Source: a virus. Taken from it: DNA of 64,000 nt. Positions within the stretch are counted from its first letter, which is position 1, and each line of letters starts with the position of its first letter. Of the stretch, positions 23,386 to 46,726 are shown in pieces. The translations under genes were made by a program, and so were the position numbers. The notes beneath the pieces are model-generated. The model was not told the DNA's origin and did no database searches. It saw only the letters and a program-made list of their open reading frames with translations. The DNA lies in the IMG/VR virus record IMGVR_UViG_3300044958_000668, positions 1-64,000 of that record; one strand, 5' to 3'.

Positions 23386-23421
23386 ATGAAATTTATAACC
23401 TAAATCAATTACATTTGCAAC

Positions 23422-23817
23422 TTATCTTTTTCTTTTGACAACATTTGAATCTTTTCTCTTTCTTCTTCTTTTTGGCTTTTCTTCCTCTTTTTCTTCCTCA
23501 ACCGGAATAGGTTCTGGATCGAGTTGAAGAACAGACGAATCGGTCCACTTATGTCGATCCCACACCTGAACTGAACGGTTAAATTTTTGAAAAACCTTTT
23601 CTGCCTCGGTTTTTAAATCTTTTAAAGTGTTGCTTTCCTTGTAGTGAACGTAACAATTAGGATTATCTTCTTTAGACAAACCTAGAACATATCTGAACTC
23701 GTATTTGACCATTCCATATTCATCAAATTCTAATTCAATTTTAGGTTTTTCTTCTTCGCCTTCTATTATTTCCTCTTCTATTATTTCCTCTTCTTTAATC
23801 TTCCTCTTTCTTCCCAT
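23422..23817 (-). CDS. Charged Glu/Lys-rich protein (131 aa)
   Basis: Both ends are low-complexity and charged (KIKEEEIIEEEIIEGEEE; and a final Lys/Arg-rich segment RRRKRKDSNVVKRKR that resembles a nucleic-acid-binding tail). The centre (YEFRYVLGLSKEDNPNCYVH, EKVFQKFNRSVQVWDRHKW) looks folded. No recognised family. The start at 23817 (MGRKRK) is chosen over upstream Met codons because the longer frame runs through the previous gene; 23823 is an alternative. Confidence 0.55.
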   Translation of the reverse strand: MGRKRKIKEEEIIEEEIIEGEEEKPKIELEFDEYGMVKYEFRYVLGLSKEDNPNCYVHYKESNTLKDLKTEAEKVFQKFNRSVQVWDRHKWTDSSVLQLDPEPIPVEEEKEEEKPKRRRKRKDSNVVKRKR

Positions 23818-24067
23818 TTTCATTCCAGTATATTTGAGTGTGTTTATTGTTTTTGGAAAGCCATTCATGAACGTGATGGAGTGTATCAATACAATCTTGC
23901 TCAGTGAAATCCTTTAGCCTCTTTTTCTTTGGGAAATATGAATACTCTGAACTATCCGACCAGCCCTCGCCAGCAAGCTCCATCCCAAAGAGACCTTCTG
24001 CGTGCCCTAGAAACGAAGCCAGGAGAGACGTTACGTCTTGCAATTGTTTTAATTCATCAGAACTCAT
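23795..24067 (-). CDS. Hypothetical protein (90 aa)
   Basis: An acidic helical small protein (MSSDELKQLQDVTSLLASFL, then a Tyr/Lys-rich segment SYFPKKKRLKDFTEQDCIDTLHHVHEWLSKNN). The start 24067 is 2 bp after the previous stop. No known family. It overlaps the start of the charged-tail gene by about 23 bp. Confidence 0.5.
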   Translation of the reverse strand: MSSDELKQLQDVTSLLASFLGHAEGLFGMELAGEGWSDSSEYSYFPKKKRLKDFTEQDCIDTLHHVHEWLSKNNKHTQIYWNENGKKEED

Positions 24068-24069
24068 TT

Positions 24070-24327
24070 TTAATCCCAAATTAAAGTGCTTCTGTACCAA
24101 TCCTTGACCCAAAAATGATCTCTCCACATGGGGTCAAGTTTATATGGATGCTCTTTGTAATAATCCATTAATTTTATATTCAGCATCCCTTTCATTTTGG
24201 CATACTCTACAGGATCTATTTCTTGGCCGCAATCCTGGCATGTATAGCTCCCAATTAAACTATACATGCCATTAAATGTTGCATTGTCGTGTTCGCAGAT
24301 TAAGTCATCATAACTCTGATGCATCAT
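24070..24327 (-). CDS. Small protein with CxxC (85 aa)
   Basis: It has a Cys/His set LICEHDNATF and YTCQDCGQEIDP, which may form a zinc site (C-x-H … CxxC). The C-terminal half (YYKEHPYKLDPMWRDHFWVK, DWYRSTLIWD) is rich in aromatic residues. No named family. The ATG overlaps the tail of a 42-codon ORF upstream. Confidence 0.55.
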   Translation of the reverse strand: MMHQSYDDLICEHDNATFNGMYSLIGSYTCQDCGQEIDPVEYAKMKGMLNIKLMDYYKEHPYKLDPMWRDHFWVKDWYRSTLIWD

Positions 24328-24436
24328 CTGGGGCTTCCTTGAAAAAGTCTAAGGGGTATTCAACAACCGCACCTGTCTCCAACGGCTGAATTTCAAAAAT
24401 CAAACTCAAGTCAACATATTGCCCGTGAAATATCAT
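24308..24436 (-). CDS. Very small protein (42 aa)
   Basis: An ORF reading MIFHGQYVDLSLIFEIQPLE and ending FFKEAPDDASEL fills the gap between the YopX-like gene and the 85-aa gene. Its ATG directly follows the upstream TAA (TAAATG), and its end overlaps the next start, the coupled arrangement seen throughout this strand. A beta-strand-like N-terminus and acidic tail are all that can be said. Confidence 0.55.
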   Translation of the reverse strand: MIFHGQYVDLSLIFEIQPLETGAVVEYPLDFFKEAPDDASEL

Positions 24437-24835
24437 TTAATGATCTCCCTCAAATATGTTTCCAATTACTTCTATTTCACCCAGAAAATCACAATGTAAC
24501 CAACCGCCGTTGGGAACCCAGATTCCCCAACATAGATTATCTAAAGTTTGATCACTGTTCCACTCAACAAACCCAACATATCTTTCGCCGCCAATATCTG
24601 AGTTGTCAAAAACAACTTTATCTCCCTCGTAAATGTCAACTCCATTTTTATCTACAAGACCAATCCACTGCTGAGTAATGATGCCTTCTATTGGATGTGA
24701 CAACCGATGACAATTATGGCAGTCACTAGGGTTGGGACGAAAGCTGCTGCTGCATATGCCACGATTGCCAATATGCAGATTTTCCCTGAACATGCCAGAG
24801 CTTTGATCCCAGAATCTAAACCTAAACCTACTCAA
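24437..24835 (-). CDS. YopX-family protein
   Basis: The 132-aa product matches the YopX family seen in many phages: opening RFRFRFWDQSSGMF, then TQQWIGLVDKNGVDIYEGDKV and an ending LGEIEVIGNIFEGD. The function is unknown. A short insertion with CHNCHR near residues 39-44 carries a possible Cys/His metal site not typical of the family. It is a marker of phage DNA rather than of a pathway. Confidence 0.85.
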   Translation of the reverse strand: MSRFRFRFWDQSSGMFRENLHIGNRGICSSSFRPNPSDCHNCHRLSHPIEGIITQQWIGLVDKNGVDIYEGDKVVFDNSDIGGERYVGFVEWNSDQTLDNLCWGIWVPNGGWLHCDFLGEIEVIGNIFEGDH

Positions 24836-24854
24836 GTCATCTCCAATTTAAACC

Positions 24855-25073
24855 TCAATTATTTTCCGCAAATATCTCGTTAAAATAAGCCCTCGACGCT
24901 TCAGCGGTATCGTATCCGCTTGGATTAGTCTCCATGAAATCAGCAACATCTGCCGATGGACCAATTTGAACTAATTCTTCAAAGCATTCACGACATATGT
25001 AACCGTATGTATGAGAGTACCTTTCACACATGACGTTAGGACAATTTCCTCTGGCACAGGGAAGAACACTCAT
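24855..25073 (-). CDS. Small Cys-rich protein (72 aa)
   Basis: Five cysteines (LPCARGNCPNVMCERY and YICRECFEELV) suggest one zinc site. From memory, short phage proteins with the pattern C-A-R-x-x-CPN-x-MC-x-RYS-x-x-YGYIC-x-ECFEEL are widespread and of unknown function. The rest is acidic. It is the first protein gene after the tmRNA terminator. Confidence 0.75.
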   Translation of the reverse strand: MSVLPCARGNCPNVMCERYSHTYGYICRECFEELVQIGPSADVADFMETNPSGYDTAEASRAYFNEIFAENN

Positions 25074-25164
25074 TTCTTTTCCTTTGATATTAGAGTTTCA
25101 AACATCTTAAAAAAATGTCACGCATGAGTCAATAAAAAAAAGCTCAGTCATGCTTCATAACTCA

Positions 25165-25200
25165 TAATAAAAAAGCTCCCCTCGCAATGCGAGGGGAGCT
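25165..25200 (-). terminator. Intrinsic terminator of tmRNA
   Basis: A 12-bp GC-rich stem (25174-25185 with 25189-25200, AGCTCCCCTCGC arm, 3-nt loop) and a U run end the tmRNA transcript 4 bases after its mature 3' end. Confidence 0.93.
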
Positions 25201-25204
25201 TCAG

Positions 25205-25560
25205 TGGACCGGACGGGAGTCGAACCCGTGTGTTGCGCTACCTATTCAAAAGCGTCTACCTGTATAGTTTGATGTTTGAGTTTCGCATCATTAAACCACA
25301 ACAAACAAAGGTTTAAATCAACTATCAAACAACGAGTCTTAGTTCAAAAGTAGTTTGATTTGCTTTGAACGCATCCAGTATTGCGGCAAGTTGTCAAACG
25401 TCACTGGCAGACCTTTGAAACTTGGGCTACTTATAATTAAGCAGCCATAGCGAAATTAGTTTTGTCAACTAAATTTTTAATCGGATTTTTAAGGAGCCTT
25501 CCGATCAACTCCTACAGGCAACTCAAGAACTCAACAGCCAATCGATACCATTTCCAGCCC
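25205..25560 (-). ncRNA. ssrA: tmRNA (ssrA)
   Basis: The 356-nt region is a one-piece tmRNA. The acceptor stem pairs GGGCTGG (25554-25560) with CCGGTCC (25206-25212); the discriminator A is at 25205 and the CCA is not encoded. The T arm reads ACGGGTTCGACTCCCGT (25213-25229), and the 5' D-like segment is GGTATCGATTGG. The tag frame at 25469-25437 reads VDKTNFAMAA followed by TAA. tmRNA rescues stalled ribosomes and tags the product for ClpXP-type proteolysis. The tag ends AMAA where most bacterial tags end ALAA. Several hairpins in the middle are consistent with pseudoknots. A phage-borne tmRNA would keep rescue active late in infection. Confidence 0.96.
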
Positions 25561-25607
25561 GTGTGTTTTAGTTATACGCAAAAAAGATATTTTTGTAAAC
25601 TTAATTT

Positions 25608-25895
25608 CTAATTTTTATGAGCATCTGCCCATTTTGAATCTTCTGGAATGTCGTGTGTTTTGACGTAATCTCGCCACTTTTCATATCCATAAAGATCGAT
25701 ATATTCGCCTCTTCTTAGAGATCTTTTTTCTTCTGCCTGCTTGAGAATCTTTTTCCTATCTTGATCAAGCTTTGGATAATCGGCACGACCAGATTGCTGC
25801 GATGCTGCTGTATTCGCCCTCTTTAGCTTCTTTTCAAAAGATTTACTAGTTTTTCTCAACTCTTCCCGTCCTTCTAAGAACTTAGAAAAATTCAT
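25608..25895 (-). CDS. Basic protein with NFSKFLEG N-terminus
   Basis: A 95-aa basic, Lys/Arg-rich protein. It begins MNFSKFLEGREELRK, one of the seven F/W-motif N-termini discussed in the findings, and continues with a helical KSFEKKLKRANTAASQQSGR and a C-terminal YIDLYGYEKWRDYVKTHDIP. The start at 25895 is chosen because the longer frame begins inside the divergent gene's leader. It is divergent from the sulfotransferase gene. A role in the head is suggested only by the N-terminus. Confidence 0.6.
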   Translation of the reverse strand: MNFSKFLEGREELRKTSKSFEKKLKRANTAASQQSGRADYPKLDQDRKKILKQAEEKRSLRRGEYIDLYGYEKWRDYVKTHDIPEDSKWADAHKN

Positions 25896-25944
25896 AAAAT
25901 ATTCAGTCTGTTTGTTGTGTGATTTCATACTATTATATACCAGC

Positions 25945-26586
25945 ATGGTAAAAATATATTCCAACATATTTCCAGGAAAAATCACTGGCAGCGAATTCTG
26001 GAACAGGAATGGCCACTTAAATGACACCATCTGCTTTCTAAATGATTATTACAAATTTAATTTTTTATGTATACCCAAAAATGCCTCGAACACCATACGT
26101 AAAGAGCTTAATTCCAAAAGAGAAAAACTATTTTCCAAACTGAACAAGGATGAACAACTTTATCCAATTATCTGCTTTGTAAGACCTGTGGATGATAGAT
26201 TTTGGTCTGCTGTCAATACTATTTTGAGAAGAAAAAACGGCAGCACTAGAATGTTTTTAAGAAACTGCGATAGTATCGAGAAATTAGCAGATTACATTGC
26301 CTCCGGTAACGACCCGCACCTTGCATCCGTTTCCGTCTTAACATCAAACATAAAACACACGGACATACGTTGGTATGATTTGAAGGTTTTAGACCAACTT
26401 AACATTTGCCACCCAAGCATAAATCGCAATTTTGACACTTTAGACACATTGAAGCAGCTTGACATATTTGGATCAAAAAAAATCCAATCTTATTATGAAA
26501 AAGATTTTGAAATTTATGAAAACTCAAAAAAAGAGATTGAAAACATTAAGTTGAAGAAGTTATGTCATAAAAAAAGCCTGTTTTAA
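25945..26586 (+). CDS. Sulfotransferase-like protein
   Basis: The 213-aa product has a PAPS-site-like segment FLCIPKNASNTIRKEL (5'-phosphosulfate-binding loop) and a 3'-phosphate motif IICFVRPVDDRFWSAV, like small sulfotransferase-2 family members. It should transfer sulfate from PAPS to a glycan or other hydroxyl. The C-terminal half (RWYDLKVLDQLNICHPSINR) is divergent. It is a lone forward gene; its stop lies within a two-way terminator. A second sulfotransferase is encoded at 40935-41528. Confidence 0.7.
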   Translation: MVKIYSNIFPGKITGSEFWNRNGHLNDTICFLNDYYKFNFLCIPKNASNTIRKELNSKREKLFSKLNKDEQLYPIICFVRPVDDRFWSAVNTILRRKNGSTRMFLRNCDSIEKLADYIASGNDPHLASVSVLTSNIKHTDIRWYDLKVLDQLNICHPSINRNFDTLDTLKQLDIFGSKKIQSYYEKDFEIYENSKKEIENIKLKKLCHKKSLF

Positions 26587-26600
26587 AAACAGGCTTTTTT
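26571..26600. terminator. Bidirectional terminator
   Basis: The hairpin AAAAAGCCTGTTT…AAACAGGCTTTTT (26571-26583 and 26587-26599) has an A run on one side and a T run on the other. It ends the sulfotransferase gene, whose stop codon is in the loop, and the acidic-repeat gene transcribed from the other strand. Confidence 0.9.
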
Positions 26601-26625
26601 ATTTCGGCTTATGGAAATTCTTGTT

Positions 26626-27324
26626 TCATCTCATGTTCATATAGCTTTTCATGGCGTCAGGCATTCCATCTGGAAGTCTTCTTTCACTGTGTTTCGATCT
26701 TAATCTTTCGAGTGGACCCATTTCGTCATCCATGCCCTCTTCGTCGTCTTCCATGTCTTCGTCGTCAGCATCCATGTCCATTTCGTCGGCATCCATGTCT
26801 TCGTCGTCGGCATCCATGTCTTCGTCGTCAGCATCCATGTCTTCGTCGTCAGCATCCATGTCTTCGTCGTCAGCATCCATGTCTTCGTCGTCAGCATCCA
26901 TGTCTTCGTCGTCATCCATGTCATCTTCAGTGCCCATGGGAGGACCAACCGCTTCGTTTTTATTTTGCATAAATGCATCAAAGCTTTCTGGCCATGTTTT
27001 TGCCTCTTTGCCGCTGGCATCTGTGTCTGGACTGTAGATTAAGTTTTTGTCGCCATCGTCTCCAAGTCCTTTTTCTTTGCCACCATCTGCAACTTGCATC
27101 CCAGGGTCTTTACCAGCAGCTTTGTATGGTGCAGGCTTAGAAGTTTTACTTCCAGCTACGTCTTCCATACCTTTTCCATCATCCTTTAACTTACGACCAG
27201 CCTGAGACTTCTCTGGAGAAGCTGGGGTTGGACCGTCATAGTCAGCAACTTTTTTAGTGCTTGCCTTTTCTCTCGTCTTGCTTCTAGAGTCTATATACTC
27301 GTTCCAAGTTTTCCAATTGTTCAT
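26626..27324 (-). CDS. Acidic repeat protein with NNWKTW N-terminus
   Basis: A 232-aa protein. It starts MNNWKTWNEYIDSRSKTRE (F/W-motif N-terminus), has a Lys/Gly/Pro-rich central region, and then a run of DDEDMDA heptapeptides from about residue 135 to 200, ending in LERLRSKHSERRLPDG. The strong acidic block may mimic DNA or bind basic proteins or divalent metals. T4 prohead core proteins are also charged and helical, so a scaffold or internal head role is conceivable. No known family. Confidence 0.75.
   Translation of the reverse strand: MNNWKTWNEYIDSRSKTREKASTKKVADYDGPTPASPEKSQAGRKLKDDGKGMEDVAGSKTSKPAPYKAAGKDPGMQVADGGKEKGLGDDGDKNLIYSPDTDASGKEAKTWPESFDAFMQNKNEAVGPPMGTEDDMDDDEDMDADDEDMDADDEDMDADDEDMDADDEDMDADDEDMDADEMDMDADDEDMEDDEEGMDDEMGPLERLRSKHSERRLPDGMPDAMKSYMNMR
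26755..26901 (-). repeat. 21-bp tandem repeat, 7 units
   Basis: Seven consecutive 21-bp units with forward-strand consensus GTCTTCGTCGTCAGCATCCAT encode DDEDMDA on the reverse strand. The second unit (GTCCATTTCGTCGGCATCCAT) is divergent. A partial unit follows. Copy number is likely variable by slippage. Confidence 0.9.
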
Positions 27325-27332
27325 CTTTTCTC

Positions 27333-27515
27333 CTAATGTGCATTTTCTGCTATTAGCATTATAATTAATAAAATGAGATAAAGCCCTAGGCCAGTGCCGA
27401 AAAATACAATGCCTAAAACAAATCCTAGTCTAACTGTTGTAGGGTTGATGTTTAAGTCTCTTCCCAATCCTGAACAGACACCAAACAAAACCTTATTGCC
27501 AAGATCTCTCTTCAT
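27333..27515 (-). CDS. PspC-domain small membrane protein
   Basis: The 60-aa product is nearly the whole PspC domain: KRDLGNKVLFGVCSGLGRDL, NINPTTVRLGFVLG and a hydrophobic IVFFGTGLGLYLILLIIMLI helix. Host PspC is an inner-membrane partner of the phage-shock response. The start 27515 has AGGAG 8 nt upstream. The phage version is the minimal domain without the cytoplasmic or DNA-binding regions, so it might modulate the host envelope-stress sensor. Confidence 0.85.
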   Translation of the reverse strand: MKRDLGNKVLFGVCSGLGRDLNINPTTVRLGFVLGIVFFGTGLGLYLILLIIMLIAENAH

Positions 27516-27581
27516 AATATACTCCTGTTTTATATTTAGTGTATTATGTGCTTTTTTTTTAAAGCATAAAGTATATATTGT

Positions 27582-27902
27582 ATGCAATTCAGAAAATGGC
27601 TAATAAAAGAAATGGCTCACATATCAATTGATGAACCAATCGACATTGGAGATCAAAAAAATGTATCTATGATTGATATGCAGTTTGAACTATATCCCGA
27701 CATGACCCAGACAACTCTAGCTCACTGGATAGTCAACGGATTTGCCGCCAAAGTCCCAAATAGCAATTATTATATAGTTTTTGACGGAAAAACAGGAAAA
27801 GCAAAGGTGTCCGATTCGACAGAGAACAAAATGCAAGTTCCTGGCGAATGGCACAAAATGGCTTATATGTCGAGCGATATGCCAGCTTGGAAATCTGCGT
27901 GA
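27582..27902 (+). CDS. Protein with QFRKWLIKE N-terminus (106 aa)
   Basis: It begins MQFRKWLIKEMAHISID (F/W motif, with a Glu after a hydrophobic pair, like a prohead-protease site). The rest is a small alpha/beta domain (VSMIDMQFELYPDMTQTTLA, YYIVFDGKTGKAKVSD). No recognised family. It is convergent with the dnaE N-terminal gene, whose stop is 1 bp away. Confidence 0.65.
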   Translation: MQFRKWLIKEMAHISIDEPIDIGDQKNVSMIDMQFELYPDMTQTTLAHWIVNGFAAKVPNSNYYIVFDGKTGKAKVSDSTENKMQVPGEWHKMAYMSSDMPAWKSA

Positions 27903-27903
27903 G

Positions 27904-29563
27904 TTATTGATCTGACCAAACACGATCAGTTCTTCCTAGAAAAGGCGCAGACTCAATTGCTTCGTCCATGGGAATGGGATCAATATTCGAAAAAGATGGT
28001 TCTCCCGAAAATCTAAACTTAATTTGTTTTCCGCCACGAGCAGGACTCAAAAATCTAGAAAACAATAGACCATGCTTGATTGGATCGACATCCGTTATCC
28101 CAAGACAGTAGCAACTAAGAGCACCAACTGCCGAGCCTCTTCCGGGACCGACTGCCGAAGAACCGCTGGAGCCATATGTCTCAAAGTACCATCTTCTGGC
28201 TTCATCGGTCATCATTTTTTGGATCAAAAAGTAAGAGGAAAAGCCTTTTTGGCAAATTAAAGAATATTCTTCTTCTATCCTATCCAAATATTCTTTATTC
28301 CTAGGAATTTTCCTCTTAACAACCCCTTCTATGATTGATTCCTTAAACTTAATGTCAGATTCGCTAAATGCAGGAAGTTTGATAGTTCTATCAAGCTTTA
28401 CGCCTTTTGCTTTTTCGCAAAGGGCAACGGTATTTAACTTGGCCTGCTTAAGTATTTCGTAATCTATTACATCCTTGTAATCACTTTCCCACTTCGCATT
28501 TATCTCTTCTTCTGACTTCATCCATAAGTTTGAATCTTGCAATTCGAACATATCAGCCATGTCATTCTGTGCCAACGCTTGTTCGATTTGCTTCATGGTT
28601 CTTCCTGTTTGAACCATAATCATCTTTCTCTGCATTTCGCTGTCTTCTTTGAGACAGTAGTGGCAATCATTTGTAACAATAATTGGTAAATTATATTTTT
28701 GGCTGGCTTTTATTATAAACTCATCATAAGGCTTTTGTTTCGAGAAGTCTAAAAGCATTATTTCTAGATAGAAGTTTTCTCCGAACATGGCCATATATTT
28801 TTCGACCATCTCCATAGCTGGACCTTCGCCACCCACATCAAAAGCTTGTCCAATTTCACTGTTATAACAGCAAGAAGTGAATATAATTCCTTCTTTATAT
28901 TGCATGAGGACTTCGTGATTGACTCTGGGTTTCCTGTAGAAACCCCTCGTCCAACCCCAAGATGAAAGAGTAACCAGATTGCTGTAGCCTGTTTCATTAT
29001 AGGCTATGGCAAGCAGATGATTCGATTTTCTTAACTTGGCTTGCTCTTCTTGCGTACCCAGACCTCTATTGAATTCCGTCATAGAAGGAATAGTGGTCGT
29101 GTCAGGCTGCAACTGATTTACATAAAGCTCACAAGCAAATATAGGCTCTAGGTTGTTTTCATCGCATGCTCTAATCTGGCGTGGGACAGAACCCATCGCA
29201 CCATGATCTGATATGCATAAAAACTTTTGATTTACCTGTTTAGAATATTTTCCATATTCTTCAACAGTGGCGTATCCATCTAAGCACAAACTCCACAGTT
29301 TCTTGTGGTGTAGACTATATCATCACCCCGAAGGGTGTCGGACGCTCTGGCCTGTAATTAAGAGGACTGAACCTCTCAGGTAGTCGTTGCACGTTCCAAA
29401 AGTGTACTTCTGGCTTCGCTCAGGATTGCCCTCGACTTTACGTTAGGGTTTCCCTGAATTCATCCGATTTGCATGCAAGATTTCTCTCACATGGCCCCAG
29501 TTAGTTAAGGCTGAAATCAGTATGTCTGTGTAGATGTTCAAAACCTACAATCAGGTCTTTCAT
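27904..29563 (-). CDS. dnaE: DNA polymerase III alpha, N-terminal (PHP) half; intron-interrupted
   Basis: The gene has two exons: 29508-29563 and 27904-29284, joined across a 223-nt group I intron. The spliced reading is 478 aa. Exon 1 gives MKDLIVGFEHLHRHTDFS, and the junction codon CT|C plus TTA gives the PHP motif HLHRHTDFSLLDGYA. Further PHP ligands are SDHGAMG and NDCHYC. The C-terminal part reaches the palm start: SAVGPGRGSAVGALS and GITDVDPIKHGLLFSRFLSP. It ends where the separate 910-aa polymerase protein takes over (about 4.5 kb downstream). AAAGGAG precedes the ATG. The unspliced frame would have only a TTG start inside the intron and no motif I. Confidence 0.93.
29285..29507 (-). 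other. Group I intron in dnaE PHP motif
   Basis: A 223-nt insertion with a group I core: P4/P5 element GGCAATCCTGAGCGAAGCC (29412-29430), R element with ACGACTA (29381-29392) pairing with S element GATATAGTC (29313-29321) to form P7, a P8 hairpin CACCCTTCGGGGTG, a P9 hairpin CCACA…TGTGG and a P7.1-like hairpin, so subgroup IA is likely. Exon 1 ends GCCT, and the intron's GGGC can pair with it (U-G at the splice site). The intron ends in G at 29285. It is too short to encode a homing endonuclease. Confidence 0.9.
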
Positions 29564-29636
29564 ATTTTACTCCTTTAGATTCAAGATACTTTTCAAATTC
29601 GCCAGCGTCATATTTGCCATTATTTAATCTTTCCAT
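29538..29636 (-). CDS. Tiny ORF upstream of dnaE (32 aa)
   Basis: The frame MERLNNGKYDAGEFEKYLES overlaps the stop of the nuclease-like gene (ATG inside its last codons) and runs 25 bp into dnaE exon 1. The start-stop overlap is the style used by true genes here, so a leader peptide coupling the nuclease-like gene to dnaE is possible; it may also be a chance frame. Confidence 0.35.
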   Translation of the reverse strand: MERLNNGKYDAGEFEKYLESKGVKYERPDCRF

Positions 29637-30139
29637 TGTTTCCATTTGCCCGTCTTTTCATTTTTAAAGTAAAAAGCAGCTTTTGGATCTTGTGTGTCTA
29701 CCTTGAAGAAAGGCTCAGATCCTTTTCTGTTTCTGCACCACTTGTTTTCAACAGGCGACTCCAGCATGGCTTCACGATTTACAATGAACAGCCTTTTGTA
29801 ATCGCCCCCGATTATCATCATATGAGTGGCATGCTCTTCTGCTTTGTCCCTTTTGCGGTAAGGGAAGTCCATTGTATGAAATTTGAAAGGAACGTCAAAC
29901 CATTTTGTTCCCCAATCTTGCTTTATCTCGGCCTCAATTCTCCATTCACCGATACTCTTTTTTGAATGCGTTCCAGCAACATCCCATATCTTTTTAAATT
30001 TTCCTCTGCTCTCGTCTAAGTTCTCTGATATTTTTTTGAATCCACGTTGTTGTAAAAATTCCGTTGCCACTAGCTTTGCAGGTCCATCATACTTTTCGTA
30101 CCTATCTTTGCAAAACCTTATATCATTAGGTTTTGGCAT
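29624..30139 (-). CDS. Probable PD-(D/E)xK nuclease-like protein
   Basis: The 171-aa product has features of a restriction-like fold: an N-terminal helix (GPAKLVATEFLQQRGFKKIS), then KKIWDVAG, and the Asp…Glu-x-Glu/Lys set IEAEIKQDW, followed by a strand MMIIGGDYKRLFIVNRE and a conserved-looking FFKVDTQDP. Similar small proteins in other phages are thought to be nucleases. The catalytic Asp/Glu/Lys assignment is by eye. The start overlaps the ClpP stop (TGATG). It lies between ClpP and dnaE. Confidence 0.5.
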   Translation of the reverse strand: MPKPNDIRFCKDRYEKYDGPAKLVATEFLQQRGFKKISENLDESRGKFKKIWDVAGTHSKKSIGEWRIEAEIKQDWGTKWFDVPFKFHTMDFPYRKRDKAEEHATHMMIIGGDYKRLFIVNREAMLESPVENKWCRNRKGSEPFFKVDTQDPKAAFYFKNEKTGKWKQWKD

Positions 30140-30852
30140 CAAATACATTCCTTAAACTTAGAGCATCTCCTTATCTTTGCTATAGTTTCGAAACCTTTGG
30201 TTCCCAAAATCCCATCAGCAAAGCCGTAGTACACTGCCTCTTCCGCAGACATGTACCAATCACTCTTATCCTTGAGCTTTTTATCTATCCAAGATATAAT
30301 TCGTGATTCTGTGTATTCTTTCTCTAAAAAGAACTCTCCAATCTTACAGCGTCTAGCAAATATTTGCAACATACGTTTCATATATTTATTATTCATTTCC
30401 ACAGCGGAGTTTACAGCTATGGAGTTATCATGCAAAGCTATAGAACCATGGTGAATCATGAATTCACAATTAGGCGTTAAAACTCTTTTATCAGCCGCTT
30501 GCAACAAAATTCCACTCATAGAAGAAGCTTGTGCATAAGTAACAAACGTGACTGATGAGTTTGCAAATCTAATTGCATCAAACATCGCTAACCCATCGCA
30601 CCAACTTCCGCCAGTAGAATGCATGTGTACCAGTACGTTTTCAGAATTCTGATTCTCTAAAACAGATAAATTTTTATTAAATCTAACTGCCATTCTGTAA
30701 TCTACACCTGGTTCGGAATCGTCAGACAAAGGGCTTAAAGAACTGTGCAGAAAGAGTTCTCTTGTATAGTGATTGATATTGTGAGAGTGAACATCGCTGA
30801 GAAGCTGTTCAATTTCCGACTTTTTACGCAAACTATTTTTCGTTGTAGCCAT
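30139..30852 (-). CDS. clpP: ClpP-like serine protease
   Basis: The 237-aa product fits ClpP: an oxyanion-loop Gly pair in HMHSTGGSW, the nucleophile Ser111 in QASSMSGILLQAA, His134 in EFMIHHGSIAL, and the helix-loop DWYMSAEEAVYYGFADGIL, where the ClpP Asp lies. An extra 40 residues at the N-terminus (to about LFLHSSLS) are not typical. GGAGG stands 5 nt before the ATG. ClpP assembles as a tetradecamer and works with ClpX/ClpA. A phage subunit could mix with the host rings, process phage proteins or act on tmRNA-tagged products. It follows the SpoVR gene after a terminator-like hairpin. Confidence 0.88.
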   Translation of the reverse strand: MATTKNSLRKKSEIEQLLSDVHSHNINHYTRELFLHSSLSPLSDDSEPGVDYRMAVRFNKNLSVLENQNSENVLVHMHSTGGSWCDGLAMFDAIRFANSSVTFVTYAQASSMSGILLQAADKRVLTPNCEFMIHHGSIALHDNSIAVNSAVEMNNKYMKRMLQIFARRCKIGEFFLEKEYTESRIISWIDKKLKDKSDWYMSAEEAVYYGFADGILGTKGFETIAKIRRCSKFKECI

Positions 30853-30959
30853 CGCAACCTCCAAAAAAGTCTTTATTTAATTCACTATTATATATCTGAT
30901 TTATATTCTATTTATCTTTTTTAACTTCCTTCCTAGGAAAATATTAAAACTATTAACTT

Positions 30960-31102: not shown

Positions 31103-32695
31103 CTATAGCGATTCGTATTCTTCTCTGGTCATGACGGCCACATCGCCATCCTGTGTTCCTACGCACCAATAAACTATTTCTTCGTCATCGGAACCAGTAG
31201 TAGACAACACCACATCATTCCCCCAAATGAATCTTAAAGACTTTAAAGTGGGGATTAAATCCGGCTCATACAAGCCTCTGCCATCGGAGTTGTGCTCTAG
31301 CAACATGACTCCCTTGCCTTGGTGGTTTGGATCTACTAGATATATCTCTGGCAAGCCTCCATTCAAATGTCTTTTGATCAACTTACTTTTGATTGACTTG
31401 TGGTCACGATTTTCAATCTTGTACTCGCCATTTGGATATCTTTTCCATTCAAAAAACTCATATTTATTACAAAAATCTTCTGTGAAAAACTCCATCAAAG
31501 CTGTTAGGTCATTATATTGCTTTCGAACATCAAATATTTTATCTCTGCCTAGACCTAGATTCTTATCCCAATTTTCTTTTTCTACTATATTGCTACATTC
31601 TTCGTACTCTTGGCCAAACTTGCCTTTATTCCACCTCTCTTCGATATCCAACAAAAGACAGAATCCTAGCTTATAAGGATTCATCGAATACTTGCCTCCG
31701 AGAACGCCCATCTTGTGAGCGGAGTATTCAACGATGCCGCAGTCTTCGCCTGTCTGCCCTAAGCCACAAAGTCCCATTTCACACATTACTGTATAATCTG
31801 TAAAGCTTGCCCATCCTTCGTTGAGCATTTTTGTAACTCTTTGAGGCGAAAAATATAAACTTTCCTCATACATCATGGAAAGAATGTCTGACTGCCAAGG
31901 TTTCAAAGGAGCACTATCTCTTAAAAATCCCATAATGTCTTTAGTTGGATTTTTAAATATTCCAATTTGCTGTGCGGCCTCATCTCGACTAATCTTTTCT
32001 TTTTGGCCATCAATCCATCTTTTAGGATTGATATAAGGCTCCATGTAATCACGGTCAGAATTTACACCTAACCTTTTAGGCTGCTTGTAGGTTCTCTCAT
32101 CTTGTATGACACGATCTTTTACAACCTTTTCTTCCCAAGCCTTCGCTGAGTCTATCAAAGTTTCAATCGAGCAGCAGTGGTCGATAAATTCTGTAACTTT
32201 CTCCACGCCCCAACGCTGCATGTATTTTCGGATGCGGGTTCCATGATTAGCAAGTTGGTTCATCATATTTTGCGAGGTGGGCGCAAAATATATGTTGTTC
32301 TTAAAAAAGTCATTGTGGCCTAAAGCGTGAGCAATAACCGTAACATTATCCACCAGCGTATTTGAATCCAAACAGTAGATGTAACAAGGATTGGTATTAA
32401 TAACCATTTCATAAATTCGGTGCATCCCATGCTCGTAACCTTTTTGAAGGCTTTCGTATTCCATTCCCCATTTCCAGTGTGGGTAACGAACTGGAAATCC
32501 TCCGTAAGATGCAACTTCACTTATTTCATCGTAAGTCAGCATCTGAACAACGGTGGGATAAAAATCGCAGCCGAAGTCTTTAACTGCCTTGAATATGTCA
32601 GGCATAATCTTCTTAAGCTCACTAGGAAGCTGAACGCCTGGCACAGTGCTGTCACCGAGAAGCAGAGAAGAGCCTCTGAAAAATTTACTAGACAT
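31103..32695 (-). CDS. spoVR: SpoVR family protein
   Basis: This full-length SpoVR/YcgB homologue (530 aa; about 510 in E. coli) contains the family signatures FYPTVVQMLTYDEISEVASY, GGFPVRYPHWKWGMEYE, INTNPCYIYCLDSNT, VIAHALGHNDFFKNN and the C-terminal YSMNPYKLGFCLLLDIEERW and ENRDHKS. The function is not established; it is a partner of the YeaG kinase and YeaH in starvation and stress in enterobacteria and affects the spore cortex in Bacillus. It is the third gene of the cassette, 5 bp after yeaH. Confidence 0.96.
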   Translation of the reverse strand: MSSKFFRGSSLLLGDSTVPGVQLPSELKKIMPDIFKAVKDFGCDFYPTVVQMLTYDEISEVASYGGFPVRYPHWKWGMEYESLQKGYEHGMHRIYEMVINTNPCYIYCLDSNTLVDNVTVIAHALGHNDFFKNNIYFAPTSQNMMNQLANHGTRIRKYMQRWGVEKVTEFIDHCCSIETLIDSAKAWEEKVVKDRVIQDERTYKQPKRLGVNSDRDYMEPYINPKRWIDGQKEKISRDEAAQQIGIFKNPTKDIMGFLRDSAPLKPWQSDILSMMYEESLYFSPQRVTKMLNEGWASFTDYTVMCEMGLCGLGQTGEDCGIVEYSAHKMGVLGGKYSMNPYKLGFCLLLDIEERWNKGKFGQEYEECSNIVEKENWDKNLGLGRDKIFDVRKQYNDLTALMEFFTEDFCNKYEFFEWKRYPNGEYKIENRDHKSIKSKLIKRHLNGGLPEIYLVDPNHQGKGVMLLEHNSDGRGLYEPDLIPTLKSLRFIWGNDVVLSTTGSDDEEIVYWCVGTQDGDVAVMTREEYESL

Positions 32696-32700
32696 ATTTT

Positions 32701-33933
32701 TTATCCTTGAATCTTCTTTTCTATTAAACCCGGTTTTCCTAATAAATCAATAATTGCTTCTCTGATTTTTACGTCTCTTTCTTCCTCTGAAATTTCAGAA
32801 GCAGGCCCCCAACTAGATACATTGTCTTCTGAGTCAGACATTATATCTGTGGTCACAACGTTAGAAGGAGGGCTTTCCGACATTAAAACATTCTCATCTA
32901 CATATTCTTTCAAGCTTCCCTTGTATCTCCAAGGCAAAATTTGAGCTATTCCTATAAAGTTGACAATATCTTCTGTGAATTGATCTTTTATTATTTTTGA
33001 AAAGACTTCGTTGTCATTGTCCCAGTTTTCCCCGTCAGTAAAATAAATTACGTACACATTCCACTTTTCAGGAGGAAACCTATTTTCCATCTGCTTTGAA
33101 ATTAATTTCAAAGCAGATGAACATGTTGTTCCACCACCATATCGGTATTTATAGAATCTTTTCTCATCAACTTCCGAAGCTTCTGTGTCGTGCCAAATAT
33201 AACATCTTTCGACACGTTTATAAAACTGCCTTATCCATAAATCTATCCACCAAGACATATCGCTAACAATATCACACTTTGTCTGGTCCATTGAAGCAGA
33301 TCCATCACGAGCGAAAAATATAACAGCATTGCTCGATGGAACTTTTATTTCTTTATATCGCCTATACCTGCGATCACTGTTTATCGGCATGATCATTTTT
33401 ACAGGCTCCTTCATGCCGGGAATGGCATGGAGTTTTTCCAATTCTCCAGAAGCAGCCATTCTCTTCATGGCTTGCTGCATAGTTCTTCGATTGTGCCTTA
33501 AGGATTCTGGACCTTGTAATGAAATATCATTGTATTTAATTTTAATTTCATCATAAGTTTGATTTGGCTTTGGCTTTAAATCAGGAAGTTCTAATTCATC
33601 CTGAAGAAATTTTAAAACATCTTCCAAGTCTATGGATATAGTAACGCCATCAGATTGTCCTTGTCCTGCCTTGCCCTTGCCTTTTCCATCGCCTGGATCA
33701 TCTCTCCCAACTACGTCTCCAGGTTTTCCACCGCCACGTCCGACTCCCTCGCCACTATTCCCATAAACAATATGTGGTATGTCTATTTTTGGGATTGTGA
33801 TGTTTATCTTTTTCCCATCTCCACGAGTTCTAAATATAGATCCGTTTTTAATCCTCTTTTGAAGATCTTTTCTTATTCGGCCAGAATAAACATCTCTAAA
33901 TCTTTTGTGGTCTTCTTCAATACGTCTTGGCAT
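32701..33933 (-). CDS. yeaH: YeaH/YhbH family protein (DUF444)
   Basis: The product (410 aa; about 427 in E. coli) has the expected order: a Gly/Lys-rich N-terminal disordered region (HIVYGNSGEGVGRGGGKPGD), an alpha-helical section and a von Willebrand-like domain with DGSASMDQTKCD (metal-site DxSxS-like) and RYGGGTTCSSALKLI, then VIYFTDGENWDNDNE. YeaH is a functional partner of the YeaG (PrkA) kinase. AAAGGG is 7 nt before the chosen ATG (33933). A terminator-like hairpin lies between it and prkA, which may set the ratio of kinase to partner. Confidence 0.95.
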   Translation of the reverse strand: MPRRIEEDHKRFRDVYSGRIRKDLQKRIKNGSIFRTRGDGKKINITIPKIDIPHIVYGNSGEGVGRGGGKPGDVVGRDDPGDGKGKGKAGQGQSDGVTISIDLEDVLKFLQDELELPDLKPKPNQTYDEIKIKYNDISLQGPESLRHNRRTMQQAMKRMAASGELEKLHAIPGMKEPVKMIMPINSDRRYRRYKEIKVPSSNAVIFFARDGSASMDQTKCDIVSDMSWWIDLWIRQFYKRVERCYIWHDTEASEVDEKRFYKYRYGGGTTCSSALKLISKQMENRFPPEKWNVYVIYFTDGENWDNDNEVFSKIIKDQFTEDIVNFIGIAQILPWRYKGSLKEYVDENVLMSESPPSNVVTTDIMSDSEDNVSSWGPASEISEEERDVKIREAIIDLLGKPGLIEKKIQG

Positions 33934-33953
33934 TACTGAACCCTTTAGTAGTC

Positions 33954-33995
33954 TAAAATAAAGAGCCACCCCCACAAAGAAGTGAAGAGTGGCTC
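33954..33995 (-). terminator. Attenuator-like hairpin between prkA and yeaH
   Basis: GAGCCAC and GTGGCTC (33963-33969 and 33989-33995) form a 7-bp stem followed on the reverse strand by a U-rich stretch (TTTATTTT). It is weaker than the other terminators and may give partial termination between kinase and partner. Confidence 0.45.
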
Positions 33996-34008
33996 ATCCT
34001 CTTTATAT

Positions 34009-36123
34009 CTAGGAGTCGTTAGCTACATCGCCTCTTGCAAATATAGAACCAACATAATCAAGAACATCCGTTGCGGATTTTTCGTTATATCCATGATGCT
34101 TAATCAAGCGGGACTTAATTGCATCAATTTTTTCTTGAACGTCTGGATCAACTACAGAGGCACCAAGAGAATTTAAAGCAGAAAGCTTTATGTGATCTCT
34201 AGTGTCTTCGAATAGTTTGGTTTGCAAAGCCTTTTGCAACTGTGGGTTACTATCCCACTTAAAGGTTTTGCTTTCATGGGCAAGATTTCCAATGAAAGCT
34301 GCCAAACTTCTGCGGAAGTCGTCAGAGCCAACTTCTGGAACATCAATTTTTTCTTCAATCGATCTCATCAACTGCTCATCTGGCAACTGTTCCTGTCCTG
34401 TGTACGGATTGGTCACTTTTGCCTTTTTAATGTATGCCATCACGTTATCGACATAATTAGTACAAAGTCTAATAATGGCATTCTCATCACCAACAAGTGC
34501 TTTTTGAACTTCTGTTTTCAAAATCTCATCTAGCTCTTTCATAGCAAAATCAACACAAGTGTTAAACCTACTTGCGTCCTCTTGATTAGAGATCAAAGAA
34601 GATCCGTCAAGTCCTTCACGAATTTCATTCAGCACCATGAATGGATTGATGTAATCATGGTGAGAACTCAAACAGTTAGAAATCTTGTCCTGAACATATC
34701 GAGCAGAGACTCCGCCAGACATCCCTTCATTTGGATATTTATCTCGCATTTCTTTTACTGAATCTTCAGTCCAGCCAGGCATTGATTTTCCATCATAAAG
34801 CTTTGACTTCTCTACCAAAGAAATTTTGCCATCTTTATCATCTTGCAATCTTGTCAAAACCGCCCAAAGAGCGGCAATCTCTAAAGTATGAGGAGCAACA
34901 TGCTGAGGAACTTTACTTTTGCCGTAATCGTTCTGATAAACTTTAAGTTCATCAGAAAGACTTAAAAGATATGGAACATCGATCTTCACAGTTCTATCAC
35001 GCAAGGCTTCCATGCTTTGATTGTTCTTGAGTTTTTCATACTCAGGATTATTTGTATGCCCAATTAAGACTTCATCGACCCCAATCTGAGCGAACTTTTT
35101 CGGCTTTATGCTTCGCTCTTGAGACGCTCCCAAAAGATCGTACAAAAACTCTTGAGCAAGCTTCAGCATCTCAATAAATTCAACAACACCACGATTCCCC
35201 ACACAAAACTCACCATCAAAGTTGAAAGCTCTAGGATCACTATCAGATCCAAAGTGAGGAAGCTTCGCATAATTGATGTCACCAGTTAGCTCAGTAGCAT
35301 CTTGATTCTTTTCGTCTTTAGGTTGAAAAGTTGCAATCCCGCATCTGTCTGCTTCAGAATAAACTTTTCTCACAACAACAATGTGCTCGTCAACAACCTT
35401 TCTCCAATCACCCTTGTGTATTTTCAAAAGTTCATCCATAAACTTTTTACATCTCGGATTAAGCTCCCCGTCGCAACGGAGTTCGTATGTTTGCTCTCCT
35501 TGAGGGTGATTCCCAAACTCTGCCTTTACTTCATTCAAATCTTTGAGAAGTTCTGCTCGTACTTTCATGGGCACTAACTTAATGGGATCGTCATGCATCG
35601 GACAATCATCAGAATCATTTGTATAAATTCCATCGGACCCTGTTGGAAGGTTTTTCCAACGGTATGTATACCAAGCACCTTGGTCTGTTTGAGAGTATTC
35701 TTCCATGCCTCTTTTGATAAGTCGGCAAATTGTAGACTTAGACGAACCTACTGGCCCGTGGAGAAGAAGAATTCTTTTTTCGGTTCCGTACCAACCGGCA
35801 GCACCCCGAATAAATTTAACCAATTCATGTAGAGTATTGTCCAAACCATAAATTGGAATTTCATCATTATCAAAGAAGTTATAATGGATATAGGTTTTTC
35901 GATACTTTTTAAACTCAGAAGTTCCAGCATTCATGATCATATCATAAACTCGCTGGTAAGCTGATCGGACTAAGCCTGGACTTTTATAACAACTATCAAT
36001 GTACTCAGAAAAAGTCATTTCCTGATTAAGTGTTTGAAATTTACCAGTATCAAAAAATCCAGCAAGCTTGTCTAGCTTAGAAGTGCCTTCATGCTCTTCC
36101 TTGTTGAAATTTTCATTTTCCAT
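34009..36123 (-). CDS. prkA: PrkA/YeaG-type serine protein kinase
   Basis: This 704-aa protein (about 640 in E. coli YeaG) has the AAA+-like PrkA core: GLDNTLHELVKFIRGAA, Walker A GPVGSSKSTICRLI, and YTYRWKNLP…CPMHDDPIKLVP, the PrkA-specific loop. Later, FNFDGEFCVGNRGVVEFIEM and DEVLIGHTNNPEYEKLKNNQ correspond to the Walker B/sensor region, then RDRTVKIDVPYLLSLSDELK and GGVSARYVQDKISNCLS. The C-terminal kinase-like domain follows. PrkA proteins phosphorylate or act with stress substrates. With yeaH and spoVR it forms the same three-gene order as many proteobacterial chromosomes. The extra length lies in the N- and C-terminal regions. Confidence 0.96.
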   Translation of the reverse strand: MENENFNKEEHEGTSKLDKLAGFFDTGKFQTLNQEMTFSEYIDSCYKSPGLVRSAYQRVYDMIMNAGTSEFKKYRKTYIHYNFFDNDEIPIYGLDNTLHELVKFIRGAAGWYGTEKRILLLHGPVGSSKSTICRLIKRGMEEYSQTDQGAWYTYRWKNLPTGSDGIYTNDSDDCPMHDDPIKLVPMKVRAELLKDLNEVKAEFGNHPQGEQTYELRCDGELNPRCKKFMDELLKIHKGDWRKVVDEHIVVVRKVYSEADRCGIATFQPKDEKNQDATELTGDINYAKLPHFGSDSDPRAFNFDGEFCVGNRGVVEFIEMLKLAQEFLYDLLGASQERSIKPKKFAQIGVDEVLIGHTNNPEYEKLKNNQSMEALRDRTVKIDVPYLLSLSDELKVYQNDYGKSKVPQHVAPHTLEIAALWAVLTRLQDDKDGKISLVEKSKLYDGKSMPGWTEDSVKEMRDKYPNEGMSGGVSARYVQDKISNCLSSHHDYINPFMVLNEIREGLDGSSLISNQEDASRFNTCVDFAMKELDEILKTEVQKALVGDENAIIRLCTNYVDNVMAYIKKAKVTNPYTGQEQLPDEQLMRSIEEKIDVPEVGSDDFRRSLAAFIGNLAHESKTFKWDSNPQLQKALQTKLFEDTRDHIKLSALNSLGASVVDPDVQEKIDAIKSRLIKHHGYNEKSATDVLDYVGSIFARGDVANDS

Positions 36124-36244: not shown

Positions 36245-36613
36245 TTACTTAACCTCGCCAAAATTTTCGCCACTAGTGATGTCATCGATCTGTTGACCAA
36301 ACTTTTTAACATCAGCATCTCCATACGGATCAGTTCCCATTTTGCTAACAGCTTCTGCAATTTTTCTGGTCGCTTTCACACCGCCTGGTTTTTCCATTTT
36401 ATGTTTAAACCTATAATCGTGCGAATTGTTAAACTTATCTGTTCCCTCTGGATTTGAAAAAGAAAAATTTGTAGAAGAAACCAAAGAAACTTTTGATTTT
36501 GATCCACATTCAGGACACTTGGCTTTTTTTATATTTTCTTCCCTGTTGGACATTGTAGACATGATGTCATAATCATGTCTACATTTTTTACATTCTAATT
36601 CATAAAAAGGCAT
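36245..36613 (-). CDS. FmdB-like zinc-ribbon protein
   Basis: The N-terminus MPFYELECKKCRHDYDIMST, followed by AKCPECGSKSKVSLVSS, is the FmdB zinc ribbon (two CxxC pairs). The remaining 75 residues are polar and helical (ATRKIAEAVSKMGTDP), and probably flexible. FmdB-type proteins are small putative regulators of unknown action and are common in phages. It lies upstream of prkA (about 120 bp), so an effect on that cassette is possible but unproven. Confidence 0.85.
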   Translation of the reverse strand: MPFYELECKKCRHDYDIMSTMSNREENIKKAKCPECGSKSKVSLVSSTNFSFSNPEGTDKFNNSHDYRFKHKMEKPGGVKATRKIAEAVSKMGTDPYGDADVKKFGQQIDDITSGENFGEVK

Positions 36614-36615: not shown

Positions 36616-36930
36616 TTACTCCGAGTCTTCTTCGTTTTCGTTTTTATCTTGTGTTTTTTTATACATCAATATATACAGTAATGTATAAAGTTCGGCTATT
36701 TTTTTTGACTTGTATTCTGGTGATCTGAATCTCCAAAACCAACTTTTTTCTAATGTTTTACGTACTGTTTCCAAAACCTTGGGTCTAGGATCTTTTGTCT
36801 TAACTTCAACGTGCGGCACCTCAAGGTATTCTCGCATTATATCTTCTTCATCAAAATAACGTTCTTCATTGAAAAAATTATCTATATCGTCCCTGAAATC
36901 TTCGTTGCCATCATAATCGAAATATCTCAT
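36616..36930 (-). CDS. Acidic hypothetical protein (104 aa)
   Basis: The start at 36930 follows GGAGG at good spacing. The N-terminal half is strongly acidic and Tyr/Phe rich (YDGNEDFRDDIDNFFNEERY), the C-terminal half basic and helical (TLEKSWFWRFRSPEYKSKKI, AELYTLLYILMYKKT). No recognised family. It lies 2 bp from the FmdB-like gene, so the two are coupled. Confidence 0.55.
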   Translation of the reverse strand: MRYFDYDGNEDFRDDIDNFFNEERYFDEEDIMREYLEVPHVEVKTKDPRPKVLETVRKTLEKSWFWRFRSPEYKSKKIAELYTLLYILMYKKTQDKNENEEDSE

Positions 36931-36943
36931 CCTTTCCTCCATC

Positions 36944-37474
36944 CTAAAAGGTAGCCTTGTATAATTTTTCTGCCTTTTCCCACAGCTTAATTATCCTAGA
37001 TTCATTAACGCTCATTTCGGAACTTATAAATCTTCGAGATATAGCACCAAAGGGTAGTACATTTTTATTTATGCACTCAGCTAAAACAAAGTTACCAACT
37101 CCATCTAAATAACTTACGAATGTAGATTGTTCATTAGATTTAGAAGAAGTAATTTTATCCCCTAAATAAGTGTCAACGGCCATAACGTCAGAATTAATAA
37201 ATAAAGTTTTTTCAAAATGTCTACTAAATTTCGTTTTAGCAACATTTAAATAATTTTGATCATTATATTGAGAAAAATTAATTTTACATCTTTTTGCCCA
37301 ATTTGAAACAATATCGCTTTTAATAAAGTCTCCTCTTGCAAGTATGAAAACCTTTGCGTCTGGTAAATTCTTAACAATTGAATACCATGAGCAAAACGCC
37401 ATCCATGGCTCAAATGGGTCTTTATCAATATTAATAACAACAGCTAAGTTGTCGCCAGTTTTAGAGATAGTCAT
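36944..37474 (-). CDS. Possible nucleotide-sugar transferase-like protein
   Basis: The 176-aa product has a GT-A-like start (NLAVVINIDKDPFEPWMAFC, KVFILARGDF) and a strand-loop FEKTLFINSDVMAVD that could be the donor-site region; a final GAISRRFISSEMSVNESRII follows. It is short for a full enzyme and has no clear DxD with confidence, so it may be a stand-alone accessory domain. It is an AT-rich gene in the accessory block. Confidence 0.35.
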   Translation of the reverse strand: MTISKTGDNLAVVINIDKDPFEPWMAFCSWYSIVKNLPDAKVFILARGDFIKSDIVSNWAKRCKINFSQYNDQNYLNVAKTKFSRHFEKTLFINSDVMAVDTYLGDKITSSKSNEQSTFVSYLDGVGNFVLAECINKNVLPFGAISRRFISSEMSVNESRIIKLWEKAEKLYKATF

Positions 37475-46582: not shown

Positions 46583-46612
46583 GACGCAATAATAGAGTTA
46601 CCTTTTTACAAA

Positions 46613-46657
46613 TTATAAAAAAAACGGGTGATCTATCGTAACTTAGATCACCCGTTT
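46613..46657 (-). terminator. Intrinsic terminator
   Basis: A 14-bp stem (AAACGGGTGATCTA 46622-46635 with 46644-46657, 8-nt loop) is followed on the reverse strand by eight U. It ends the transcript of the guaC-linked small gene before hldE. Confidence 0.92.
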
Positions 46658-46726
46658 ATTAAGGAGAAATTGACCCAGTAAACATCAGGTCAACCAACAC
46701 AATGGCGTTTGTGCAATCTAAAGTAG

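Follow-up and report, generated by a model that had tools for sequence, protein, structure and literature searches.

Introduction

In bacteria, the genes for the PrkA/YeaG-type AAA+ protein, for YeaH/YhbH, which contains a von Willebrand factor A (VWA) domain, and for SpoVR form a known operon. The counterpart genes are prkA, yhbH and spoVR in Bacillus; in Escherichia coli, ycgB presumably joins yeaG and yeaH as the third gene. The Rhizobium etli operon, prkA-CH02816-CH02815, is a highly conserved gene cluster headed by prkA and controlled by (p)ppGpp and sigma-N (PMC3188799), and an E. coli yeaG mutant under nitrogen starvation stays metabolically active and loses viability, with a yeaH mutant sharing its shortened lag (PMC4664914). 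Here we analyze a complete prkA-yeaH-spoVR cassette in the first 64,000 of the 83,101 bases of the IMG/VR virus record IMGVR_UViG_3300044958_000668 (this whole stretch is called the window below). We find it to be a genuine phage variant of the bacterial operon, old and widely distributed.

Some of this had been noticed in phages. SpoVR and serine kinase already appear as names in Thermus phage records, and the Ralstonia jumbo phage RsoM2USA encodes SpoVR (ORF28) and PrkA (ORF30), with Vibrio and Alcanivorax proteins as best matches in the published table (PMC8504454). In an oxygen-minimum zone, spoVR was the most abundant sporulation-type viral gene and was classed as an auxiliary metabolic gene; that paper reads viral spoVR as a sporulation gene, and PrkA is absent from its main text (PMC8940887). 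A term search of the main text of a paper on huge phages found neither SpoVR nor a kinase (PMC7162821).

Results

A complete cassette in the window

PrkA, YeaH and SpoVR are encoded by three intact minus-strand open reading frames (ORFs), exactly where a sequence-only reading of this DNA had placed them. PrkA, an AAA+ ATPase of 704 residues (34009..36123), was identified by Pfam, alignment A1 and residue maps, its full length being covered by PF08298 (268 bits) and PF06798 (236 bits; both cut-offs 25). YeaH (DUF444; 424 residues, 32701..33975) matches PF04285 with 235 bits, and SpoVR (530 residues, 31103..32695) matches PF04293 over its full length with 356 bits, both above the curated Pfam cut-offs; the small C-terminal domain SpoVR_C, at 22.2 bits, stays under its cut-off of 27.6. 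None of the three proteins reaches an NCBIfam equivalog cut-off, and they are therefore divergent members of their families.

The gap between YeaH and SpoVR is 5 bases, and that between PrkA and YeaH 33 or 75 bases, depending on the choice of YeaH start. The DUF444 family consensus and the codon map point to Met15 (33933) as the likely true start. Some YeaH matches contain stops. In all eight phage loci examined, out of nine dropped from the alignment for this, and in one bacterial locus (L154), the stop falls within 12 residues of where the match begins, upstream of the likely start; two other bacterial loci (L134 and L170) have a stop elsewhere.

Spread of the cassette in phages and bacteria

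A search of IMG/VR with the window PrkA matched 133 stretches, of which 80 were kept as related loci, forming 59 clusters at 95% DNA identity of PrkA. All three genes are present in 75 of the 80. In the other five (L059, L072, L073, L076 and L080) the available sequence ends before or within the missing gene; L011 and L021 (SpoVR) and L061 (PrkA) are likewise cut by a sequence end, yet were counted as holding the gene. Order and strand are identical in all 75 complete loci, and intergenic distances reach 1-2.5 kb in some phage loci. A 245,522-base viral contig (L004) holds all eight query proteins of the window at 100%, and the 595,163-base phage record LR756511 also carries the cassette. Among the terminases of four records of this lineage, including LR756511, likeness is 45-79%; with the terminases of two phages of ~640 kb it drops to 22-31%, in local matches. 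This comparison rests on six of the ten records searched; the other four, which may be fragments, gave no match, and the record of L004, the window's identical copy, is one of them.

Among 50,697 phage records, 16 bear PrkA, one of them being the Enterobacter phage LAU1 record discussed below, whose copy is probably host DNA. A second PrkA type matched 179 IMG/VR stretches, 80 of which were kept and 69 of these have the three genes in order, although this set may contain misfiled bacterial contigs. The RsoM2USA genome was not among the phage matches of this analysis. The sequence-only reading had taken the cassette to be no standard phage module, which no longer holds: Thermus phages and ~640-kb phages carry the set, and the Ralstonia jumbo phage at least two of the genes. 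The genes are thus widespread in phages, but we did not encounter a characterization of them there.

Among the best 80 bacterial loci, 51 have the order PrkA>YeaH>SpoVR once the phage loci L087 and L088 are subtracted from a count of 53, confirming the phage arrangement as the bacterial one, and two more have YeaH-SpoVR divergent from PrkA. The remaining 27 lack the full set in the available DNA, contig ends being unchecked (18 with PrkA alone, nine with PrkA-YeaH).

That bacteria carry the same operon favors the idea that the region is host chromosome or a chimeric assembly, a doubt already raised with the sequence-only reading, and one phage record illustrates it: in Enterobacter phage LAU1, yeaG-yeaH lies at the very end of the prophage record (L089 1-3308), without spoVR, and is probably host DNA. 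For the window, this explanation is contradicted by the whole set in 75 of 80 loci from so many clusters, by its presence in the 595,163-base phage record, by the related terminases of four records, by the separate phage groups in the gene trees and by a phage-specific zinc-ribbon neighbor (both below). We rejected host contamination or chimerism, to which we assign next to no probability.

Gene trees and selection

Trees were built with FastTree after removal of near-copies. The alignments leave out loci that are cut by contig ends, split by inteins, stop-bearing or on the minus strand, and alignments A3 and A4 were picked by hand. Phage copies occupy one side of a single branch in the trees of PrkA (52 phage and 75 bacterial rows; support 98), SpoVR (45 and 42 rows; support 100) and YeaH (47 and 52 rows; support 99). 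The check by trees that had been proposed for this locus places the phage copies of the window lineage together for every one of the three genes. Thermus phages branch on their own each time, with long branches and unsure placement, and the ~640-kb phages group with Enterobacter YeaG in the PrkA tree. These positions suggest more than one uptake of the set by phages.

For bacteria, the rows were drawn from the best 80 of at least 576 relatives, and a nearer, unsampled bacterial sister could therefore exist. Among the matches listed, the best bacterial PrkA proteins are 49-54% identical to that of the window. They come from Planctomycetota, Myxococcota, Bdellovibrionota, Chloroflexota, KSB1 and others.

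The cassette genes look to be under purifying selection. The ratio of nonsynonymous to synonymous substitution (dN/dS) is 0.03-0.18 in 27 of 48 gene-pair comparisons, the others being saturated or identical. These values are rough, and the upper ones least sure, because most computed pairs have synonymous distances above 1 and intein-bearing SpoVR was compared by its best-matching piece only.

PrkA and YeaH

Family motifs are present, as the sequence-only reading had stated: besides the Pfam matches, the AAA+ Walker A and the VWA metal-ion-dependent adhesion site (MIDAS) residues are kept. The Walker A lysine of PrkA, K129 (35737-35739), is found in 51/51 phage and 76/76 bacterial rows. YeaG numbering was transferred through the Enterobacter protein of MN688132, with the agreement of YeaG K116 with Walker A as the only check. 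In the AAA+ domain, the window has Ala (A286, 35266-35268) where YeaG has R232. Arg occupies this position in 16 of the 51 phage rows and is absent from 35; in bacteria it is present in 75/76 rows, with Lys in the one other. In E. coli, YeaG R232 and K426 are needed in vivo, and the change of R232 to Ala abolishes function (PMC4664914). Because Ala stands at this required position, the window PrkA may differ in function from the PrkA of its host.

The lysine of the YeaG kinase domain, K426, was not found in the window PrkA, which has D479 (34687-34689) instead. Asp is also present in 49/51 phage rows and in 76/76 bacterial relatives, and a Lys lies one residue further on in 47/51 phage and 74/76 bacterial rows. 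The sequence-only reading had spoken of a stress kinase; the AAA+ PrkA-family identity stands, but a kinase function of this PrkA subtype is doubtful on the basis of these residues. The literature is divided on the point. Kinase activity in vitro is cited for E. coli and Bacillus PrkA (PMC4664914, PMC3188799), protease activity has also been reported in work cited by papers on PrkA (PMC13001217, PMC4664914, PMC3188799), and a Bacillus PrkA is described as having negligible kinase and protease activity and as forming oligomers with ATP (PMC13001217). The sole PDB match to the window PrkA is to the 9xip structures, titled 'Serine protein kinase' (5e-212), and no MoxR-type Pfam model matches it at E<=0.001.

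In YeaH, the MIDAS residues D224, S226, S228, T283 and D314 are kept in all 60 aligned rows, 26 of them from phages. The AlphaFold2 model (mean predicted local distance difference test score, pLDDT, 81.0) has a VWA fold, and its VIA matches to VWA domains reach Z 15.8. Five phage loci (L031, L048, L051, L065 and L068) have extra ORFs encoding 112 to 490 residues between PrkA and YeaH, perhaps mobile or homing genes.

A putative metal site in SpoVR

The SpoVR alignment comprises 68 rows (29 phage and 39 bacterial). H123, H127, E293 and E96 are invariant in all of them, as are N292-E293-G294 and A296. H123 and H127 belong to an AH-x3-H motif in which the catalytic Glu of HExxH is absent from 68/68 rows: position 124 is Ala in 29/29 phage and Val in 39/39 bacterial rows. 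Position 300, just after NEGWA, separates the two groups in the same way, with Asp in 29/29 phage and His in 39/39 bacterial rows. We propose H123, H127 and E293 as a putative metal triad.

The AlphaFold2 model of SpoVR has a mean pLDDT of 85.3 and a predicted template modeling score of 0.80. The top VIA match (see Discussion) is followed by eleven others, of which ten bear titles of M1 aminopeptidases, leukotriene A4 hydrolase or an M32 carboxypeptidase. The best peptidase among them, 3cia, reaches Z 10.3 over 178 residues at 3.7 A, a Z that helical models can reach by chance. Another of the top 12, 7a03, is titled only 'CHT', and lower matches include ACE2, dipeptidyl peptidase III, BepA and BlaR1. 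A Foldseek search of viral models gave one match, A0A3Q8HYQ4 (E 1.2e-11), whose 617 residues appear to agree with the length of phiLo SpoVR.

We compared the motifs with six M1 sequences, which were motif-chosen, being those of 20 fetched loci that match EGxA. The AH-x3-H of SpoVR stands against AHExxH, and N292-E293-G294-x-A296 against EGxA, which is mostly NEGFA or a near form. The motifs thus agree with those of zinc metallopeptidases, except for the missing catalytic Glu; the predicted fold resembles theirs less surely, the evidence for it being middling. We read SpoVR as a metal-holding protein with a predicted peptidase-like fold and a phage-type active site, and not as an ordinary peptidase.

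Two further observations concern SpoVR in ~640-kb phages. In LR745206 (L087 11106-12776), H-x4-H (AHAAYGHNHFF) replaces H-x3-H, which is the same kind of difference as that between M49 and M1 peptidases. In LR756502 (L090), the window SpoVR matches at 520010-521386, far from PrkA, and the LR745206 SpoVR as query finds a further match beside PrkA; this phage may have two SpoVR genes.

Inteins in SpoVR

SpoVR contains inteins in 22 of 75 IMG/VR loci: 14 at site a, 16 at site b and eight at both. The other 53 loci, two of them partial, have no insert. By 95% clusters, 15 of the 54 with a complete SpoVR bear inteins. The window SpoVR carries neither; from the inserts of its relatives, its empty site a lies between N100 and T101 (32395..32396) and its empty site b between A296 and S297, that is, NEGWA/S (31807..31808). 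The inserts are in frame, start with Cys, end with HN and are followed by Ser or Thr. Among seven scanned proteins with such inserts, LAGLIDADG PF14528 is above its cut-off in seven and the splicing domain PF14890 in six, L082 reaching 31.5 of 35.8 bits. Split SpoVR matches were therefore rejected as broken or intron-split genes, since they are single open frames with inteins. Both sites adjoin invariant residues, where inteins of working, needed proteins usually sit.

SpoVR inteins move, since near-copies differ in intein content: one 95% cluster includes L027 without an intein, L020 with one at site b and L022-L024 with inteins at both sites, and L037 has site a where its near-copy L038 has none. 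Inteins exactly at site b also occur in bacterial SpoVR, namely in a Chloroflexota locus (L094), a Myxococcota locus (L152) and a partial locus (L128), and, within the phylum to which Sorangium (G001) belongs, in 12 of 282 sampled genomes. The phage site-b inteins form one clade (97/100), with the bacterial ones unresolved beside it; two end branches are long in this tree, and with only two bacterial rows the support of the phage group is 62/77.

The phage-bacterium pair L012-L152 is 38% identical in the extein and 46% in the intein, an intein excess that fits transfer across the phage-bacterium line. The phage pair L012-L020 (57% extein, 47% intein) and the bacterial pair L094-L152 (62% and 39%) have no such excess. 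The transfer reading is weakened by L012-L094, also without an excess (37% extein, 35% intein), and by phage pairs whose inteins are closer than their exteins, such as L053-L062 (80% and 95%). These comparisons support, but do not prove, that the intein crossed the line, in either direction, after the phage and bacterial SpoVR genes had parted. SpoVR and intein were not found together in the open-licence literature, supplements being outside the search; as far as this search went, SpoVR inteins are not in print.

Neighboring genes

Just upstream of PrkA lies a gene for an FmdB-type zinc-ribbon protein (36245..36613, minus strand; PF09723, TIGR02605). By tblastn, 67 of the 75 phage loci with sufficient sequence have such a gene no more than 3 kb upstream of PrkA and in the same orientation, and none of 73 bacterial loci does; a profile of 71 phage proteins gave the same counts. 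It is a phage-side extension of the cassette. Next to it, also on the minus strand, are a gene for a short protein (36616..36942), weakly conserved at the same place in some relatives, and another (36944..37474), weakly conserved there in many.

Downstream of SpoVR, a minus-strand gene encodes a ClpP-like serine protease (30139..30864) by Pfam, below all NCBIfam cut-offs. It has some likeness to head-maturation proteases, far below the cut-off (60.5 of 120 bits). Of the 52 phage loci with sufficient sequence, 25 have such a gene after SpoVR, and none of 31 bacterial loci has one.

A defense function was rejected, since at E<=0.01 no PADLOC model matches PrkA, YeaH or SpoVR; one model, PDC-M14A, matches the zinc-ribbon protein weakly (E 0.0011).

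The cassette had been placed among phage replication genes, which is fair. DNA polymerase III alpha is encoded in pieces on the minus strand (20653-29620): a first exon directly before a group I intron (29292-29517), the PHP and N-terminal part (27904-29289) and the C-terminal part (20653-23385). A transfer-messenger RNA (25204-25560) with small ORFs lies in the 4.5 kb between the N- and C-terminal parts. Helicase, UvsX-like and single-strand-binding genes are also within the window. Host-type metabolic genes occur at 961-7236 and 45152-48062 (UDP-glucose dehydrogenase-like, aldehyde dehydrogenase, thiamine pyrophosphate enzyme, heptose kinase/adenylyltransferase-like fusion and dehydrogenase).

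Discussion

We identified an intact phage form of the prkA-yeaH-spoVR operon that is kept in fixed order across a lineage of large phages. For its function in infection, we infer the following, with a confidence that is evenly balanced. An ancestor of one large-phage lineage would have taken up the operon long ago, and its descendants would have kept it as a core gene set. PrkA may form an ATP-driven AAA+ ring, a motor that the MIDAS metal site of YeaH, as adaptor, would couple to a client, and SpoVR, holding a metal in a metallopeptidase-like fold, would be this client or effector. The phage-made set might bring the host cell into, or keep it in, a state of low activity and stress resistance, or alternatively stand in for the host's own set when cells are starved, allowing a phage with a very large genome to complete its long infection.

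Several observations weigh against this reading. With Ala at the R232 position, the window PrkA may work differently from the host protein. A prkA mutant of R. etli is described as having no growth defect on 384 nitrogen sources (PMC3188799). Of the four Thermus phages examined, two (phiYS40 and Lalka8) have packaging genes close to the set, and in all four the gene order differs, which fits another role. Moreover, the best VIA match of SpoVR is 3o0y, titled putative lipoprotein (Z 11.2, 186 residues, 3.5 A), Foldseek found nothing for SpoVR in the PDB at E<=0.001 (best E 0.35), and the profile comparison with the six M1 sequences gave a probability of 2%, with AHxxxH aligned on AHExxH. The dN/dS values are also rough, most of them resting on synonymous distances above 1.

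The phage proteins could instead block the host starvation programme, a changed PrkA joining or titrating the host AAA+ ring together with YeaH and SpoVR, so that the cell stays active. The deletion of yeaG leaves starved E. coli more active, which is possibly useful to a phage, and the window carries at the R232 position the very residue that abolishes function in E. coli (PMC4664914). Given the loss of the R232 equivalent in most phage rows, present in only 16/51 against 75/76 in bacteria, and the differences at SpoVR 124 and 300, beside the putative metal site, between all 29 phage and all 39 bacterial rows, a blocking role has some basis. Yet a poison needs one protein, and here the metal-site residues are kept in all 26 phage YeaH and 29 phage SpoVR rows and Walker A is invariant. 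The best bacterial PrkA among the matches listed is only 54% alike, which makes mixed rings uncertain. We consider such blocking rather improbable.

Alternatively, the set could be a phage-side machine for assembly or quality control whose targets are phage proteins, as in head maturation, and not the physiology of the host. The Lalka8 set lies between portal and minor head genes and TerL, the phiYS40 set is near TerL, and the ClpP-like protease gene after SpoVR occurs in 25/52 phage loci and in 0/31 bacterial loci. In MN1 and phiLo, however, no packaging gene was found beside the set in the stretch examined, 27/52 phage loci gave no ClpP-like gene close to SpoVR, and its product falls far short of the head-maturation cut-off. 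The window neighbors, moreover, include DNA polymerase III and other DNA genes. We regard this role as unlikely.

A bolder reading joins the PrkA, SpoVR and intein results. The cassette would then be central to the infection machinery of one huge-phage lineage or more: an AAA+/VWA motor, retuned through loss of an arginine needed by the host's version, would drive a metal-holding SpoVR whose M1-like, Glu-less active site has phage-type residues, and NEGWA/S in that site would be a homing target shared by phages and bacteria for one intein family. We offer this combination only tentatively, as something possible that falls well short of probable.

Taken together, phage retention under apparent purifying selection, and inteins that mark the likely active site, make the function of the bacterial cassette testable. 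The questions they raise are which residues are important in SpoVR, whether PrkA acts as a motor and not as a kinase, and whether a starvation machine serves to hold a cell while a long infection runs. Carriage by phages is less surprising than first thought, and SpoVR itself more so. The new elements are the Glu-less, putatively metallopeptidase-like SpoVR, its phage-type site residues, the SpoVR inteins and the zinc-ribbon gene before PrkA.

Pairs of an AAA+ protein and a VWA protein include RavA-ViaA, CbbQ-CbbO and ChlI-ChlD. Like them, the cassette has an AAA+ ATPase gene beside a VWA protein gene with an intact MIDAS; unlike them, PrkA has no MoxR-type Pfam match and has its own C-terminal domain, PF06798. 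The Thermus phages phiYS40, phiLo, MN1 and Lalka8 show the same three families in cultured phages, where some of the genes carry the annotations serine kinase, SpoVR, vWA or conserved bacterial protein. Their order, however, is VWA-SpoVR-PrkA, their PrkA is only ~30% identical and they branch separately in three trees. The ~640-kb phages LR745206, LR756504 and LR756502 share PrkA, YeaH and SpoVR in the same order, but their PrkA is only ~25% identical and groups with Enterobacter YeaG.

The closest system remains the bacterial prkA-yeaH-spoVR operon, with which the window cassette shares the three families, their order and strand, Walker A, MIDAS and the invariant residues of SpoVR. It differs in that PrkA is at most 54% and SpoVR at most 43% identical (alignment A3) to the bacterial rows listed, and in that its lineage often lacks Arg at the YeaG R232 position, has phage-type residues at SpoVR 124 and 300 and carries the zinc-ribbon neighbor.

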